20,828 nucleotides of DNA from a virus, in IMG/VR virus record IMGVR_UViG_3300044904_000117, positions 1 to 20,828 of that record; one strand, 5' to 3'. Position numbers and translations under genes: made by a program. Under the pieces are notes generated by a model that did not search any database, had not been told where the DNA came from, and saw nothing but the letters and a program-made list of their open reading frames with translations. Below, piece after piece: positions 5,860-20,828 of the stretch (the first letter of the stretch is position 1; every line of letters begins with the position of its first letter).

Positions 5860-6428
5860 ATCTCCTGATCGACGAGCTGCCCGAAGCGGTGCTTGTCGGA
5901 AAGAAGATATGGAAAATCAATACCGACTTCCGCGATTGCCTCCGGGTGCTTCTGGCGTGGGAAGATGAAACACTTACAGGCTACGAGAAAACCATGATAC
6001 TTTTGAGTAACCTTTACCCTGTTATGCCGGACGACATCAACGGCGCGCTCGAGCAGGGTATGAAATTCTTGAATTTTGGAAGGACCGAGGTAGTGGAAGA
6101 TGACAACCCGATGCGGCTTTACTCGTTTGCAAAGGATGCTTCTCTGATCTTTTCGGCGTTTCGCCAGACCCACCAGATTGACCTGGTAACGGAGAAACTA
6201 CACTTCTGGACTTTCTTATCGCTCTTCTCGGATCTTGGGTCTGACACGGCCTTTTGTCAGTTGATCGGGCTGCGCAAACGGGTGAAGACCGGCACGGCTT
6301 CGCCGGAAGAAGTGAAGGCGGCTGAGGACATGGGTGCAGCATTCACGCTCGAAGAGCCCGACTTAAGAACGGCAGAAGAAAAGGAACAGGAAGCGGAGTT
6401 CATGCGCTTAGTTGGACAAGGAAAATGA
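5856..6428 (+). CDS. Bacteriophage Gp15 family tail assembly protein
   Basis: This 190-residue protein has the Gp15 signature. The N-terminus MNLLIDELPEAVLVGKKIWKINTDFRDCLRVLLAWED is followed by a helical EKTMILLSNLYPVMPDDINGALEQGMKFLNFG segment, and a C-terminal half with FWTFLSLFSDLG. Gp15 proteins lie just before the tape measure in streptococcal and lactococcal-type phages and are taken to be tail chaperones. In related genomes the tape-measure gene follows directly. Here a GIY-YIG endonuclease gene is wedged between, overlapping the Gp15 stop by four bases. Confidence 0.8.
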   Translation: MNLLIDELPEAVLVGKKIWKINTDFRDCLRVLLAWEDETLTGYEKTMILLSNLYPVMPDDINGALEQGMKFLNFGRTEVVEDDNPMRLYSFAKDASLIFSAFRQTHQIDLVTEKLHFWTFLSLFSDLGSDTAFCQLIGLRKRVKTGTASPEEVKAAEDMGAAFTLEEPDLRTAEEKEQEAEFMRLVGQGK

Positions 6429-6430
6429 TG

Positions 6431-6436
6431 TATAAT
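6431..6436 (+). promoter_or_regulatory. Possible -10 element for the GIY-YIG gene
   Basis: A perfect TATAAT lies just after the Gp15 stop and about 125 bases before the likely GIY-YIG start. The region at the right distance upstream (TTAGTT at 6408-6413) is a poor -35. A promoter carried with the mobile gene is possible, but the evidence is only the -10 match. Confidence 0.25.
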
Positions 6437-6475
6437 ACAAGTGTTGAGGGAAGTAAGGAGTTTTTGTTTGCCAAT

Positions 6476-6546
6476 AGAGAGCCGTTACTCATGGTAACTC
6501 CTGATTCCCTCGACAAGAATCGGCGAAACATGGGTAACGGCTCTCT
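6476..6546 (+). promoter_or_regulatory. Long stem-loop in the leader of the GIY-YIG gene
   Basis: AGAGAGCCGTTAC (6476-6488) is perfectly complementary to GTAACGGCTCTCT (6534-6546). Pairing continues inward through one G-U and four more pairs (6489-6493 with 6529-6533), giving about 18 bp. An inner hairpin (CTGATTC 6501-6507 with GAATCGG 6517-6523) fits within the loop. The stem ends four bases before the GAGG ribosome binding site at 6551-6554. There is no U run, so it is not an intrinsic terminator. It may control access to the ribosome binding site or mRNA processing. Confidence 0.65.
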
Positions 6547-6559
6547 GCGCGAGGATACG

Positions 6560-7483
6560 ATGAAGAGAGTAAGTGGCGTGTACAAAATTACGAATATCGT
6601 CAACGGTAAATTTTATGTTGGTTCTTCCAAAGACATCGAGAGAAGAAGAAAACAACATTTTAGCAAAAGGGGAGGAAGCCTGGGGCTTACCCGTGCAATT
6701 CTTAAACACGGAATTGATAATTTTATACATGAAATTCTGGAAGAATGCCCAGAAGAAGAATTAATTAAACGGGAGCAACATTTTATTGATTTGCTAAAAC
6801 CCCAATACAACCTCAGCCACATTGCAGGAAGAATTGAGCATACACCAGAAGTAAGGGATAAATTGTCGGCAGCCATGAGAAAAATTTGGCAATCAGAAGA
6901 ATATAGAGCCAACGCGATTGCCAAGAAAAAAGGAATCCCTTCTTGGAATAAGGGCATAAAATCCAGCCCAGAAACCATTGAGAAATTAAGGGCATCCCAT
7001 TTAGGAATACCCCATTCCTCGGAATGGCGAATAAAAATGAGGGGAATTATGACGGGTCGTAAAATGACCGATAGCGATAAGGCAAAGATGAGCGCCGCCC
7101 AAAAAGGACACGCTGTCACGGAAGAAGCGAAGATAAATATGTCGCTTGCCCATCTAGGGAAACCAAGTCCTAGAAAAGGTTGCAAGCTGTCAGATGAAAC
7201 TAAAGCAAAAATAAGTTTGGTACAAATTGGGCACGTTGCTTCGGAAGAGACCCGCGCAAAAATGCGAGCATCTAGCAGGCATCAAAAGCCGTCAGATGAA
7301 CACATGGCGAAATTATCGGCATTATTTACGGGTAAACCGCTTTCAGAAGAACATTGTAAAAAATTATCAGTAGCGCACATGGGAAACACAAGCGCACTTG
7401 GCCACAGGGTATCTGACGAGGCCAGAGAAAAAATATCTATTGCTGTAAGGAAACATAATCAGCAACGGATGAAGGTGGACTAA
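6560..7483 (+). CDS. GIY-YIG homing endonuclease with NUMOD3 repeats
   Basis: The start at 6560 is preferred: GAGG lies five bases upstream and the nuclease domain begins at residue 5. The frame is open back to 6425, but those 45 codons cover the stem-loop and look non-coding. The 307-residue protein has a GIY-YIG core at 6-85: GVY (6-8), YVG (19-21), Arg28, His33, catalytic-type Glu72 and PQYN (81-84). At least five NUMOD3-like DNA-contact repeats follow (about 94-300; pattern (S/T)xExxxKxSxAxxG). These enzymes cut a specific site and spread their own gene. It is richer in A+T than its neighbours. The stop overlaps the tape-measure ATG, and GAAGGTGG near its end serves as the tape-measure ribosome binding site. 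Confidence 0.9.
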   Translation: MKRVSGVYKITNIVNGKFYVGSSKDIERRRKQHFSKRGGSLGLTRAILKHGIDNFIHEILEECPEEELIKREQHFIDLLKPQYNLSHIAGRIEHTPEVRDKLSAAMRKIWQSEEYRANAIAKKKGIPSWNKGIKSSPETIEKLRASHLGIPHSSEWRIKMRGIMTGRKMTDSDKAKMSAAQKGHAVTEEAKINMSLAHLGKPSPRKGCKLSDETKAKISLVQIGHVASEETRAKMRASSRHQKPSDEHMAKLSALFTGKPLSEEHCKKLSVAHMGNTSALGHRVSDEAREKISIAVRKHNQQRMKVD

Positions 7484-12785: not shown

Positions 12786-13043
12786 ATGTATATACTAAAC
12801 TACGACCCACGAACAGGCAAAGTCTCATCCATCCAACTCGGCAACATGTGCATTCCTCTCTGCCCCGACAACACAGACTATCAGGCGTTCTTGGCATGGA
12901 ACAAGGCACAGAAGAAACCGCTCGACCTGGAAAGCACCATCGAACCAGTTGCGCCAGAACCAGTACGTGACCTGGCGGCAGAAGTGACAGCTCTCCAGAC
13001 GCAAGTGGATGAGATTGCGAAGGCAACTGATGCTACAGGGTAA
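12786..13043 (+). CDS. Small fibre-associated protein, 3' end probably displaced by HNH gene
   Basis: The 85-residue product starts at 12786, where TAGGAGATGTT supplies a ribosome binding site. It reads MYILNYDPRTGKVSSIQLGN, then IPLCPDNTDYQAFLAWNKAQ, then a Pro-rich linker and a short coiled coil, LAAEVTALQTQVDEI (64-78). Small proteins of this form ('IP-x-D-x2-N-x-DYQ-x-FL-x-W-N') accompany tail-fibre genes. The TAA at 13041 comes soon after the coiled coil, and the HNH gene starts inside it at 13030. The C-terminal codons of the original gene may now be attached to the HNH gene. Confidence 0.65.
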   Translation: MYILNYDPRTGKVSSIQLGNMCIPLCPDNTDYQAFLAWNKAQKKPLDLESTIEPVAPEPVRDLAAEVTALQTQVDEIAKATDATG

Positions 13044-13770
13044 CGGGGCGTTCTCTAAAGGACACATTCCGTGGAACAAGGGAATGAAAGGGATCAGAGT
13101 ATCTCCTGATACAGAATTCAAGAAGGGAGTTGTTTCGTGGAACAGAGGTAAAAAATATCACACTGGCATAAAAACCCTTGGTTTTACTGGAAAGAAGCAT
13201 TCAGAAGAAACAAAATTAAAAATGTCTTTGGCGGCAAAGTCCCATGTATTTACAACAGAGCACCGCGATAATATTTCTAAGGCTCTCAAAGGGCATAAAA
13301 TGCCAGATAGTCACAAAGTGGCAATGTCAAAGAGACTAAAAGGAAACAAATATCGACAGGGAATACCGCATTCAGAAGAAACGAAAAAAATAATGTCAGA
13401 TCAACGACAGGGAGAACTAAACGGAAACTGGAAAGGTGGCTTGTCTTTTCTTCCTTATTCCTCTGAATTTAATTACAGAACAAAAGAGTCAATCCGAGAA
13501 AGAGACAATCGTCAATGCCAAAAATGTGGCATTCTAGAAACAGAGCATCCAATCAAGCTCGCTATACACCATGTGGATTATAATAAACAAAAATGTTGTT
13601 CCAACAATCTTATTACTCTTTGCAAGAAGTGTAATAGCGAAGTGAACGGCAACAGAGATTATTGGAAATCGTTTTTTGTCGAAAAACTGCAAGATATAAA
13701 GTCTGCGCTGGCGGATGCGAATATCGCGGTCGTGGACTCGGTTGCTATGAGTGAAAGGGCGATCAAATGA
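13030..13770 (+). CDS. HNH homing endonuclease with NUMOD3-type repeats and captured C-terminus
   Basis: This 246-residue protein begins MLQGNGAFSKGHIPWNKGMKG. A basic repeat region (about 10-120) has several NUMOD3-like units (HSEETKLKMS, TTEHRDNISKALKG, HSEETKKIMS). The HNH core is CQKC (163-166), HHVDYN (180-185), NNLITLCKKCNSEVNG (193-208). Both zinc CxxC pairs are intact; the third His position is Asn202. The start at 13030 (GAAGG seven bases upstream) is favoured over 13009. The core is A+T-rich, while the last 22 residues, SALADANIAVVDSVAMSERAIK, are G+C-rich like the tail genes and look foreign to HNH proteins. The stop overlaps the endolysin start (ATGA). Confidence 0.9.
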   Translation: MLQGNGAFSKGHIPWNKGMKGIRVSPDTEFKKGVVSWNRGKKYHTGIKTLGFTGKKHSEETKLKMSLAAKSHVFTTEHRDNISKALKGHKMPDSHKVAMSKRLKGNKYRQGIPHSEETKKIMSDQRQGELNGNWKGGLSFLPYSSEFNYRTKESIRERDNRQCQKCGILETEHPIKLAIHHVDYNKQKCCSNNLITLCKKCNSEVNGNRDYWKSFFVEKLQDIKSALADANIAVVDSVAMSERAIK

Positions 13771-15430: not shown

Positions 15431-15437
15431 GCACGAC

Positions 15438-15494
15438 GCCCGGCCTCGTAGCTACCTCATGGCGTTGCCTATTTTACGGCAGTCGAGGCCGGGC
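15438..15494. repeat. Long-loop hairpin P1
   Basis: GCCCGGCCTCG (15438-15448) pairs perfectly with CGAGGCCGGGC (15484-15494); the loop is 35 bases and contains a small inner stem, TGCC/GGCA. The left arm could also pair with a second GAGGCCGGGC at 15547-15556. It is not followed by a T run on either strand. Confidence 0.6.
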
Positions 15495-15496
15495 AT

Positions 15497-15561
15497 AATA
15501 AAAGCAGACTCGCCCGATTTTTGCTTGCCCACGAATTGCAGGGACAGAGGCCGGGCGAGTC
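15497..15561 (-). terminator. Hairpin P2, likely terminator for leftward transcripts
   Basis: GACTCGCCCG (15507-15516) pairs perfectly with CGGGCGAGTC (15552-15561) around a 35-base loop. Read on the - strand, the stem is followed by TGCTTTTATTAT, a U-rich tail, so it can stop transcription coming from the early operon before it runs into the lysis genes. The long loop is unusual for a simple terminator. Confidence 0.5.
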
Positions 15562-17275: not shown

Positions 17276-17841
17276 AGGCGTTCTGGCGGCATTTCTGTCG
17301 ATAACCCTAACTTGCTATCAATTTCTTCCCCCTTGATTTTCATTATCTCTTCGATTTGATCTTGGGATAAAGAAAACCATTCGTATCTAATGCGTTGTTC
17401 GGCATAAGTATCGTGTAAATACATTTCGGCTTTTCTGCAATGTACAGAATGGAAATGGTGCAGAACGGTCATTTTTAATGGGACATCTCTTTCTATTTGA
17501 TTTACCCTACTTTGAATGTCCTGAGATGTCATACCTATTTTGCACATACCGTTTTCCGCCCGTAGTAGATAGACATATCCTCCACGAGGTTTTGATGGTA
17601 CGTATTCCTTTTTGGTTTTGGGTTCGGAGTATTCGGGGTTGGTGTTTGATTCTTTTTCTGGTTTAAAATAAACCTTATATTTCCCACCGTAACTCATTCC
17701 CGATACTCTCCAATTAGCCTTTATAAGCCCCGGCTTCTGTCTTAAGTACCTTTGTTTACAAGTATTTCCTGGACAAAAATACATGTATCGAGGGTGTAGG
17801 GGAGTCTTACAAAATAAGCAGTACCTAACTTCGTTGTCCAT
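17272..17841 (-). CDS. T5orf172/MUG113-type GIY-YIG-fold protein with N-terminal zinc finger
   Basis: The start at 17841 (189 residues) is preferred: GGAG lies five bases upstream, whereas the longer TTG-initiated frame runs into the structured leader. An N-terminal zinc finger has C8, C11, C23 and C28. A Lys/Glu-rich linker (about 55-85) leads to a MUG113/T5orf172 domain at 88-165: GYVYLL (88-93), CKIGMT (100-105), Arg112, KAEMYLH with Glu139, and YEWFSLS (153-159). This is the GIY-YIG superfamily with the KIG variant. Related proteins are phage nucleases or DNA-binding proteins. It is A+T-rich and may be mobile. Position behind a complex RNA-like leader suggests tight control. Confidence 0.8.
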   Translation of the reverse strand: MDNEVRYCLFCKTPLHPRYMYFCPGNTCKQRYLRQKPGLIKANWRVSGMSYGGKYKVYFKPEKESNTNPEYSEPKTKKEYVPSKPRGGYVYLLRAENGMCKIGMTSQDIQSRVNQIERDVPLKMTVLHHFHSVHCRKAEMYLHDTYAEQRIRYEWFSLSQDQIEEIMKIKGEEIDSKLGLSTEMPPERL

Positions 17842-17993
17842 TCTTGCTCCAAAACATTCGGCCCCGCCTAACTCTTTTGCCAATTGTCGAGATTGGGAAG
17901 TTTGTTAGGTAGGGCCGAATGTGGCAAAAGTAAAACTTCCTTCAATCTCGACAGGGGCAATTTTACCACAAAAACCCAGAGAGTGCGTGCGCA
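17842..17993 (-). promoter_or_regulatory. Structured leader with mutually exclusive hairpins
   Basis: Six arms occur in the order L1 (17854-17872), L2 (17874-17882), L3 (17886-17903), R1 (17904-17922), R2 (17922-17930), R3 (17933-17952). L1:R1 pairs at 17 of 19 positions plus one wobble; L2:R2 is a perfect 9 bp; L3:R3 is 18 bp with a 2-base bulge. Each left arm comes before all right arms, so the long stems cannot both form. In the - strand RNA the L1:R1 stem is last and is followed by UUUU, GGAG and the ATG at 17841. This resembles an attenuator or ribosome-binding-site switch. No ligand or protein is identified. Confidence 0.6.
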
Positions 17994-18305
17994 TCAGCCG
18001 ACTTTCCCCGGTATTGGCACCCATCCGCCTTCGGAGGGTGAGTGGTCCGTCAGTGTCAATCCCAACTTTTTCGCTATCAGCTCTGGCGTAATGCTCAACA
18101 AGAGTGTGCCATTGGGGAACACACCAGCCCCTAATCCATCGGAGTCTAATTGATAGGACTCGCATTTCCCACCTTTACATATACTTTGATCGTCTGCGGC
18201 GGCAATGCGAACAAATCCATTACTTGAAAGTACGGCCCCGGCCTGTGGTGATGGCGCACAGGCGGCGAGAATAAGCGCAATCAAGAATACAGCATATTTT
18301 TTCAT
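17994..18305 (-). CDS. Small lipoprotein
   Basis: The start at 18305 is chosen because GGGAG ends seven bases upstream; an ATG six bases earlier is too close. The 103-residue product begins MKKYAVFLIALILAACAPSP: a Lys-Lys N-terminus, hydrophobic core and LAAC lipobox with Cys16 as the predicted lipidated residue. The mature part includes CKGGKCESYQ, which could form a disulfide. It should be anchored on the outer face of the membrane. Phage lipoproteins of this size often block superinfection or injection, but no homology shows that here. Confidence 0.75.
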   Translation of the reverse strand: MKKYAVFLIALILAACAPSPQAGAVLSSNGFVRIAAADDQSICKGGKCESYQLDSDGLGAGVFPNGTLLLSITPELIAKKLGLTLTDHSPSEGGWVPIPGKVG

Positions 18306-18324: not shown

Positions 18325-18990
18325 CTACTTCTTGACTTCCCAGACGATCACGGTACCGCTGAGAAAATCAGGGATGAAGTAAATCTTTGCGCTATCGGTG
18401 GTGAGACCAGTCCAACATATGCTCCCTTTTAATTTATCGTTCGGTATTACCGTACCATCCAAACTGCCTGATGGGCAATTAAAGATGTCCAACTTAAGTG
18501 TAGTTCCTTCGTTATCCTTGGCAGAGAAACTCATCATCGAGCTTACATCAATGTTTTCTGTTCCCTTATTTTCAATCGTAAAATTCGCTTGCAATCTACC
18601 GTTGGCAATCTGCGCATTATTCATGGTGACATATTGAGTCCCAGCCTGAATGGCTTCTCCAGTTTGGTTAGTTTGCAGGGTAGCGGTAACTTCTATGGTA
18701 GCCGTGGGGTAGGGAGTATCTGATGATTTTGGAGTATCTGAGGGTGCTGTTGTCATTGTGGGTTTTATGGGTTCCGTAGGTTTCGGAGTTCTTGTATAAG
18801 TGGCAGTCCACAAAGCCACCAGAGTTTTTTGTCTTACACTGGTTTGTGTTGCTAACTTTTTATATTGTGGCGTTTGGGCATAAACATACCCAAAAATCAT
18901 AATTATTAAACAAAGTGCTACCAATCCACCAACAATAATTAATATTACCTTTATGGCACTGGACTTCTTTGGTTTTGATTCGTTGGTCAT
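18325..18990 (-). CDS. Membrane-anchored surface protein with Pro/Thr stalk and DUF4352-like domain
   Basis: The start at 18990 (221 residues) is supported by GGAGG six bases upstream. A short Lys-rich cytoplasmic end leads to one membrane helix (13-37, IKVILIIVGGLVALCLIIMIFGYVY). A Pro/Thr-rich stalk follows (62-104, with TPKPTEP, TPKSSDTPYPT), then an Ig-like beta domain (about 118-221) with NFTIENKGTENIDVSS, typical of DUF4352-like domains. Cys172 and Cys192 could form a disulfide. The stalk style is common in Chloroflexota surface proteins. Placed next to a lipoprotein inside the early operon, it may alter the host surface; that is inference. Confidence 0.7.
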   Translation of the reverse strand: MTNESKPKKSSAIKVILIIVGGLVALCLIIMIFGYVYAQTPQYKKLATQTSVRQKTLVALWTATYTRTPKPTEPIKPTMTTAPSDTPKSSDTPYPTATIEVTATLQTNQTGEAIQAGTQYVTMNNAQIANGRLQANFTIENKGTENIDVSSMMSFSAKDNEGTTLKLDIFNCPSGSLDGTVIPNDKLKGSICWTGLTTDSAKIYFIPDFLSGTVIVWEVKK

Positions 18991-20212: not shown

Positions 20213-20828
20213 TTACGCCTCCGCCAATAATTTCATTTCGGCTGCCCGGCTGCCCTTGGCGGGGTTGCGCGGGCCGGCTGGGTGCACTTTGGGAGGCAGT
20301 GCACTCTTTCCTTCGACTGCCCAGCGCTTGAGAATAGCCGCACAGTATGCCCAATTGCGCTTGTTTTGCTCGGCGGCGATATGGAAAGACTCGATCAGCC
20401 ATTCCGGGGGGATATGGAGATTGTCCAGGTAGTCGCTAATGCAGTCATTGACGTGTCCATTAAGTCCACCGATTTCTGTTTCGTAAGTGGCAAAAACACT
20501 GCCGAATTTTTCCCTCGTAGTCGTATTATTACTTTGCTCCTTGCTACTTAAATACTTAATACTTGCGTGCGATTCTCCACACTCTGGTTTATCCACACTC
20601 TGGTTTTTCGCACTCTGGTTATCCACCCCCACCTGTGGCGCAACCAGAGTGCTATTTCCTGTATGTGGTGTCTCGTAAACTTCCCACAAATGGGACAGTA
20701 TCTTTCCGGTTTCTTTATCTGCAATTGTAGTGTGGCGTAAATGACCAATAGCTTGAAGTTCTCTTACTCCAGCCCGGACAGACGCAAGGCCATCTGTGCT
20801 TCTGTTTGCCAAGTCAACCAGGTTGACC
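20213..20828 (-). CDS. DnaD-like replisome organiser, partial (N-terminus beyond window)
   Basis: The frame is open through the right edge; 204 residues are visible. The first part carries the end of a winged helix, LANRSTDGLASVRAGVRELQAIGHL, then a beta wing ending WEVYETP. A low-complexity linker rich in Asn, Gln and Ser follows (about 50-100 residues after a TTG codon at 20812). The C-terminal DnaD/DnaB_2-like helical domain (EIGGLNGHVNDCISDYLD ... WLIESFHIAAEQNKRNWAYCAAILKRW) ends with a basic tail. Such proteins bind the phage origin and recruit the helicase and its loader. The linker DNA holds iteron-like repeats. The likely real start is outside the window. Confidence 0.8.
   Translation of the reverse strand, partial: VNLVDLANRSTDGLASVRAGVRELQAIGHLRHTTIADKETGKILSHLWEVYETPHTGNSTLVAPQVGVDNQSAKNQSVDKPECGESHASIKYLSSKEQSNNTTTREKFGSVFATYETEIGGLNGHVNDCISDYLDNLHIPPEWLIESFHIAAEQNKRNWAYCAAILKRWAVEGKSALPPKVHPAGPRNPAKGSRAAEMKLLAEA
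20544..20651. repeat. Iteron-like repeats and A+T-rich patch, candidate replication origin
   Basis: CACTCTGGTT occurs at 20580-20589, 20596-20605 and 20611-20620 (spacing 16 and 15), with an inverted copy, AACCAGAGTG, at 20642-20651. The first two share a longer TCCACACTCTGGTTT. To the left lies the A+T-rich ACTTAAATACTTAATACTT (20546-20564). The repeats lie in the sequence encoding the linker of the replisome organiser, as known for lambda O and several DnaD-like phage initiators. Origin function is inferred from this arrangement. Confidence 0.55.

Follow-up and report, generated by a model that had tools for sequence, protein, structure and literature searches.

A 20,828-nt stretch of viral DNA (IMG/VR record IMGVR_UViG_3300044904_000117; the window) carries two copies of a six-armed, interlocked element that recurs, with at least seven examples in total, in front of phage genes. 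We propose, at a probability of roughly 60%, that the element is a conserved promoter-coupled 5' leader RNA that controls accessory DNA-acting phage genes, mostly nucleases and methyltransferases, and whose fold changes during transcription. This reading builds on the anatomy of the element, its recurrence, its covariation, the spacing of the promoter-like box, and its position ahead of start codons, from which we infer function as RNA, promoter activity of the box, and switching with a particular direction.

The copy at 17842-17993 on the minus strand (lead1) fills exactly the gap between a stop codon at 17994, which ends the upstream 105-aa lipoprotein-like gene (18311-17994, minus), and the ATG at 17841. 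As the initial annotation of this DNA had described, three inverted-repeat pairs are laid out as L1-L2-L3-R1-R2-R3, so that on the minus-strand RNA the arms follow one another as c (R3), b (R2), a (R1), c' (L3), b' (L2), and a' (L1), and every helix is interlocked with the others. Its counts were accurate for a:a' (19 positions, with 17 Watson–Crick pairs, one G-U, and an A-C mismatch at the remaining position of the minus-strand RNA) and for b:b' (a perfect 9 bp); for c:c' the 2-nt bulge was correctly described, but there are 19 pairs (11+8) rather than 18. It had also judged chance an unlikely source, and we agree: the best interlocked triple at lead1 scores 66.5, against a maximum of 51.7 in dinucleotide shuffles (0/500 reach lead1), and shuffles with the c ends held fixed likewise never reach it. 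Minimum free energy (MFE) folding with RNA energies at lead1 forms a:a'. With a –10-like box at a fixed distance from arm c, this leader is not only an intergenic stretch but probably a 5' end close to its promoter. Coordinates of the features are collected in Table 1.

Table 1. Features of the two window elements and genes behind further members. Positions are those of the window; the Shine–Dalgarno-like motifs are read from the sequence.
Feature	Position	Strand	Sequence	Remark
lead1 –10-like box	17960-17965	–	TAAAAT (extended TGTGGTAAAAT)	6 nt before arm c; predicted transcription start near 17953
lead1 arm c (R3)	17933-17953	–	TGTCGAGATTGAAGGAAGTTT	pairs with 17885-17903
lead1 arm b (R2)	17922-17930	–	CTTTTGCCA	9 bp, perfect, with 17874-17882
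lead1 arm a (R1)	17904-17922	–	ACATTCGGCCCTACCTAAC	18/19 pairs with 17854-17872
lead1 arm c' (L3)	17885-17903	–	AAACTTCCCAATCTCGACA	partner of arm c
lead1 arm b' (L2)	17874-17882	–	TGGCAAAAG	partner of arm b
lead1 arm a' (L1)	17854-17872	–	GTTAGGCGGGGCCGAATGT	partner of arm a
lead1 Shine–Dalgarno-like motif	17847-17850	–	GGAG	3 nt past a'
MUG113/T5orf172 gene (GIY-YIG superfamily), 189 aa	17272-17841	–		ATG at 17841; Pfam PF13455 E 4e-18, PF10544 E 9e-13
lead2 –10-like box	6431-6436	+	TATAAT	
lead2 arm c	6442-6462	+	TGTTGAGGGAAGTAAGGAGTT	pairs with 6496-6515
lead2 arm b	6466-6472	+	GTTTGCC	pairs with 6522-6529, one bulged G
lead2 arm a	6476-6493	+	AGAGAGCCGTTACTCATG	18 pairs (one G-U) with 6529-6546
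lead2 arm c'	6496-6515	+	AACTCCTGATTCCCTCGACA	partner of arm c
lead2 arm b'	6522-6529	+	GGCGAAAC	partner of arm b
lead2 arm a'	6529-6546	+	CATGGGTAACGGCTCTCT	partner of arm a
lead2 Shine–Dalgarno-like motif	6551-6554	+	GAGG	4 nt past a'
GIY-YIG/NUMOD3 homing-endonuclease-like gene behind lead2	6560-7483	+		predicted start 6560; Pfam PF01541 E 1.5e-14, PF07460 E 1.5e-19
L082				ahead of C5 DNA methyltransferase gene
L117				ahead of HNH protein gene
L129				ahead of an unassigned ORF, then an N6/N4 methyltransferase gene
L133				ahead of gene for a protein with several CxxC zinc-finger-like motifs, no Pfam match

A stem scan of the whole window ranked 6476-6546 first, ahead of lead1, and this site is the leader of the other GIY-YIG gene. 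The top interlocked triples on both strands of the 20.8 kb score 70.1 and 66.5 and correspond to this second element (lead2; 6442-6547, plus strand) and to lead1, the next, unrelated one reaching 56.3; both top elements of the window therefore adjoin GIY-YIG-type genes and lie in their leaders. Lead2 has six arms in the same order as lead1 and a mostly different sequence; the two have in common the TTTGCC of b and the CTCGACA with which c' ends. Another NUMOD3-type endonuclease-like gene of the window (13009-13770), which overlaps the end of the preceding gene, lacks the element.

Scanning IMG/VR with patterns on the bases common to lead1 and lead2, followed by the structure finder, gave at least five more members (L030, L082, L117, L129, and L133), for a total of at least seven elements, of which six differ clearly in sequence. 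The exception, L030, is a relative of lead2 in the same place before a tape-measure gene: the two agree at ~96% of positions across the element (5 of 127 nt differ, counted by eye), their differences within stems preserve pairing, both flanks drop to roughly 60% (by eye), and the GIY-YIG genes differ. Nuclease or DNA-methyltransferase genes lie downstream of most of the seven elements, with recognised nuclease genes directly after four. The initial description as the leader of a MUG113/GIY-YIG-fold gene is therefore right for lead1, but the element has no tie to such genes, as HNH-type and methyltransferase genes carry it too. Exactly one element is present in each of the full records of L082, L117, L129, and L133. 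As to the surroundings of the lead2 type, in both phages (window 6425-7483 and L030 1-639) the GIY-YIG gene sits between the tape-measure gene and the gene before it, which by position is a tail-assembly chaperone, and the leader is conserved between them far above the genes on either side.

Other matches of the member-finding patterns carried no element, nor did the 17 IMG/VR relatives of the second GIY-YIG gene; a TTTGCC-based pattern gave 40 matches in 84,980 species genomes, none with the architecture, and a loose pattern gave 16 loci in 400 genomes of a Chloroflexi MAG's phylum, none with the element. At the protein level, no relatives of the MUG113 protein were found in IMG/VR or GTDB genomes, and none of the neighbouring 146-aa protein or of a tail protein in IMG/VR; a search of named phages for relatives of the L117 and L133 proteins yielded nothing useful. 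A DNA similarity search against named phages and plasmids returned short chance matches only. An early motif, TGTCGAGATTG...GGAAGTTT, was discarded because its four matches were all chance occurrences inside genes.

All seven elements share the TGTYGAG...CTCGACA helix end, the c b a c' b' a' order, and a tight c'-b'-a' spacing, with at most 6 nt from c' to b' and –1 to +1 nt from b' to a'; in six of the seven, no more than 6 nt separate b from a. A TAWAAT box stands 5-6 nt before the invariant TGTYGAG that opens c in 7/7 elements, and this box lay outside the search pattern for lead1, lead2, L030, and L082. (In L129, arm c reaches four bases further out than TGTYGAG.) Since the –10-like box precedes arm c, the predicted RNA contains all arms; the element spans 93-110 nt, and the leader measures about 95-110 nt from the predicted transcription start to the end of a'. 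From there to the ATG, the distance is 8-13 nt in lead1, lead2, L030, and L133, 18 in L117, and 21 in L082; in L129 the first good, and likely, start codon comes ~70 nt past a'. Orientation is constant: the element always lies in the sense of the gene, with the box upstream and the start codon downstream. Invariant bases are confined to the end of c and a little of b, and the upper part of c is absent in L117 and L133, the lower c ends being invariant.

Two coding explanations were set aside. The lead2 frame is open and shared with L030 (3/5 changes synonymous), but the corresponding frame of lead1 contains a stop; the frames of leaderless peptides starting at c are open but not conserved. On the reverse strand of L117, the promoter-like box is preceded by GGCGATTATCTG, which matches the b region as its complement over 12 bp without a mismatch; this segment would occur in read-through RNA only and could distinguish those transcripts. 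We rejected an upstream partner for b as a family trait: L117 has a strong one (12 bp, p ~0.003), that of lead1 is borderline, and the other elements have none.

In an ungapped alignment of the arms of the seven elements over 28 pairs, 99.5% of cells pair and both partners vary in 20 of the 28 pairs. Covariation scores 0.874, compared to 0.21 in shuffles, with none of 500 shuffles reaching any of the measures, and controls in which the arms were slid collapse. Covarying pairs are distributed as 12/12 in a, 5/6 in b, and 3/10 in c, whose outer seven pairs are conserved in sequence; the conserved c ends of L082 to L133 are partly built into the search, which is not so for lead1 and lead2. No long stem is broken without compensation among the relatives, and compensatory changes occur in all three helices. 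Because the members were partly selected for pairing, we used three controls: shuffles with the c ends held fixed, other matches of the patterns, and a sequence-agnostic descriptor. The real score was never reached by fixed-end shuffles in any of six elements. The descriptor, which makes no sequence demands on c, b, or a, scored the seven elements at 55.6-77.5, compared to 43.8 at most in the rest of 1.16 Mb and 49.1 in the reversed control. On the gene-sense strand we counted 11 G-U pairs versus 2 A-C mismatches, a comparison with a mild bias, as the aligner favored G-U pairs on this strand. This excess, together with the –10-like box, the start signals, and the constant orientation, favors RNA read in the sense of the gene as the probable acting molecule.

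To follow the order of folding, we computed the MFE of the lengthening RNA. Helix c forms first, and a overtakes it once a' has been made in lead1, lead2, L030, L082, and L117, which is the order the initial annotation had foreseen (L3:R3 early, L1:R1 later); in this nested model, the minimum stays with c in L129 and L133. Opening the region from –20 to +13 costs ~17-21 kcal/mol in the unconstrained, mostly a:a', fold versus 4.5-14 when c is locked in five of six elements, with no difference for L133. When a was locked, the region opened for the 30S window excluded the hairpin itself, making this a weak comparison, and the cost was not consistently above that of the c-locked fold. The Shine–Dalgarno zone is about equally open in the c and a states of most elements and lies inside a' only in L133, which also has the only clear U-tract (GTTTTTTT, between a' and the ATG); lead2, L030, and L129 are without one. 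At lead1, the UUUU that the initial annotation had placed between L1:R1 and the ribosome binding site is weak. With neither a U-tract nor Shine–Dalgarno burial conserved across the seven elements, the output step either varies among members or is of another kind. The elements show no ligand pocket and no trigger.

Which helices exclude one another depends on how much of c is formed. The initial annotation had held the connecting loops too short for c and a to coexist; this is correct for the full-length stems, for which the linkers are too short, and only for full-length c do c and a strictly exclude each other. With only the lower 8-12 bp of c, a pseudoknot of c and a has loops of 20-42, 4-12 (pseudoknot loop L2), and 11-14 nt (pseudoknot loop L3) in the seven elements and, judged by this geometry, should be sterically feasible in all of them. 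The clearer and more robust exclusive pair is b:b' versus a:a', which can hardly both form because b' directly adjoins a' or shares one base with it, and b lies close to a in 6/7. The 30S-window opening costs and the terminator-like end of L133 suggest that expression is restricted when a:a' forms and permitted by c, or c+b.

We envisage the following sequence of events. Transcription would start at arm c, a few nucleotides past the TAWAAT box, and c would pair with c' first as RNA polymerase advances. The contiguous b'a' strand would then emerge beside c', where b' may take b or a' may take a, hardly both. The late a:a' helix, ending shortly before the start signals, would close the upstream half of the 30S landing site, and in L133 it would also contain the Shine–Dalgarno sequence and resemble an intrinsic terminator. 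Expression would thus be permitted by the fast fold (c or c+b) and restricted by a:a', whether by itself or in a pseudoknot with lower c. Candidate triggers are the speed or pausing of the polymerase, an RNA or protein partner, or the ribosome. A broader claim, which we advance tentatively and hold at somewhat less than even odds, is that the element represents a new class of RNA regulator: a portable phage promoter-plus-leader module in which the c b a c' b' a' order constitutes an ordered three-step co-transcriptional switch before selfish or DNA-modifying genes, with exclusion imposed by topology rather than by shared arms. The element would add an RNA family absent from Rfam release 15, with a helix arrangement that searches for nested structures would usually miss. 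It points to a common RNA control module that phage endonuclease and methyltransferase genes either carry along as they move or come to by convergence. It also brings within reach of simple reporter assays the question of how freestanding homing genes limit damage to the phage that hosts them.

Several other explanations account for part of these data. In a transcription attenuator, a:a' would be an intrinsic terminator and c (or c+b) the antiterminator, the fold that prevails as polymerase passes the end of a' setting expression. L133 matches this closely, its helix a (GCCTTCTGTTA.../...TAACAGAAGGC) being followed by its U-tract directly before the ATG; after the stem, L117 has CGTGTTTT and lead1 TGTTTT, and intrinsic terminators are reported within the 5' ends of the T4 homing endonuclease genes mobE and segF (PMC2988022). 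For the family we nevertheless regard attenuation as unlikely for the following reasons: three members have no U-tract, a terminator scan calls none at lead1, and the a:a' loop of ~28-35 nt or more is unlike that of typical terminators. What stands of the attenuator- or riboswitch-like logic first proposed for lead1 is a leader switch of competing hairpins, strongly supported by recurrence and covariation; the terminator part fits L133 well and lead1 poorly. We find it similarly doubtful that lower c (8-12 bp) joins a in a fixed H-type pseudoknot, in which b' would form the crossing loop and b:b' would be a folding intermediate, serving as constitutive 5'-end protection or as a ribosome block. 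The uniformity of the loops when only lower c is formed and the loss of upper c in L117 and L133 beside invariant lower ends argue for such a fold, but b:b' pairs in 7/7 elements and covaries at 5/6 pairs, which would be needless for a mere loop.

A role at the DNA level, as a recombination or transposon end, an operator array, or a homing target recognised as a folded single strand or as repeats, we consider improbable. It would explain why one structurally conserved element stands ahead of different genes, and the contrast between the near-identity of lead2 and L030 and their diverged flanks suggests module exchange or very strong constraint. The inner ends of a fit the attC consensus RYYYAAC/GTTRRRY in lead1 and L082, but the core misfits in lead2, L030, L117, L129, and L133, and we dropped an integron attC site. 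Against any DNA-level role, G-U is kept over A-C on one strand (e.g., lead2 TGTTGAG with CTCGACA), and the sense orientation, with the –10-like box upstream and a start codon downstream, never varies. By analogy with the IscB omega-RNA (HEARO), the leader might instead be the gene of a non-coding guide or scaffold RNA that partners the nuclease, as a structured RNA of ~100 nt lies directly upstream of the recognised nuclease genes; we hold this very improbable, since the downstream proteins belong to different families, one of them a C5 methyltransferase, the element gives no HEARO/omega-RNA match, and no variable guide segment was seen in it. Interlocked inverted copies can in principle come from template switching, and a chance or mutational by-product without function, for example of repeated template switching, could be imagined. 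Recurrence with different sequences and compensatory changes contradicts it, and we give it almost no credence.

The closest known systems are the leaders of T4-type phage homing endonuclease genes (I-TevI, I-TevII, I-TevIII, segB, and Aeh1 mobE), where hairpins in the leader exert control, and that of seg43(25) from Aeromonas phage 25, in which a very stable predicted hairpin immediately precedes an open ribosome binding site (PMC2988022). The resemblance lies in a stable RNA structure in a phage endonuclease leader, a nearby promoter, and start signals at or beside the stem, and the new element does place a stable hairpin beside the ribosome binding site (in six elements, 8-21 nt separate the end of a' from the ATG). 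The T4-type structures are, however, single hairpins that mostly bury the ribosome binding site and form only on read-through RNA, whereas the new element has three interlocked covarying helices, all downstream of a promoter-like box, a shared c-end sequence, and several families of downstream genes. Only L133 sequesters the Shine–Dalgarno sequence in a stem, and because the box lies before arm c, the element's own transcripts would not lack part of the hairpin. Like attenuators and riboswitches with exclusive stems, it has ordered competing helices upstream of a gene and, in L133, a terminator-like stem with a U-tract; unlike them, its competing helices share no arm and exclude one another by interlocking. 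Helix c, which precedes a in folding, would be the candidate for an earlier, excluding stem, yet lower c and a could coexist; a U-tract after a terminator stem is not found in all members; and we found no ligand core, leader peptide, or common terminator. No Rfam family matches any element at gathering or loose thresholds (at lead1 there are only microRNA-like chance matches), and among the open-access papers searched we found nothing closer on pseudoknotted or attenuating leaders of phage endonuclease genes, in keeping with the initial annotation, which knew of no described element of this form. We class the element as a novel form within phage leader regulation and as no member of a named family.

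Two other structured RNAs invite comparison. The HEARO/IscB omega-RNA is likewise a structured RNA beside a nuclease gene, but the new element matches no Rfam model and the downstream proteins are unrelated. The int-alpA RNA (Rfam RF02996) is another small RNA placed immediately before a nuclease-like gene and, in the window, likewise follows a CTGTGGTAAAAT-type box; it is nested, however, and differs in sequence and structure, and the new element gives no int-alpA match. An int-alpA RNA (47.3 bits) does occur in the window at 462-527 on the minus strand, directly upstream of a zinc-finger/HNH-like gene (453-1, minus), and the CTGTGGTAAAAT before it is the same extended –10-like box as that before lead1.

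We additionally noted three features elsewhere. At 20573-20652 of the window, within a DnaD-like replication gene, three 16-nt direct repeats with TTATCCACA-like (DnaA-box-like) sequences and inverted copies likely mark a phage replication origin. Overlapping GC-rich inverted repeats (the CGCCCGGCCTCG family) occupy 15437-15561, a gap on which the structural and early gene blocks converge. Finally, the proteins encoded at window 18325-18990 and L129 2060-3763 contain TPTP-rich stretches, which we take to recall Chloroflexota lipoproteins.
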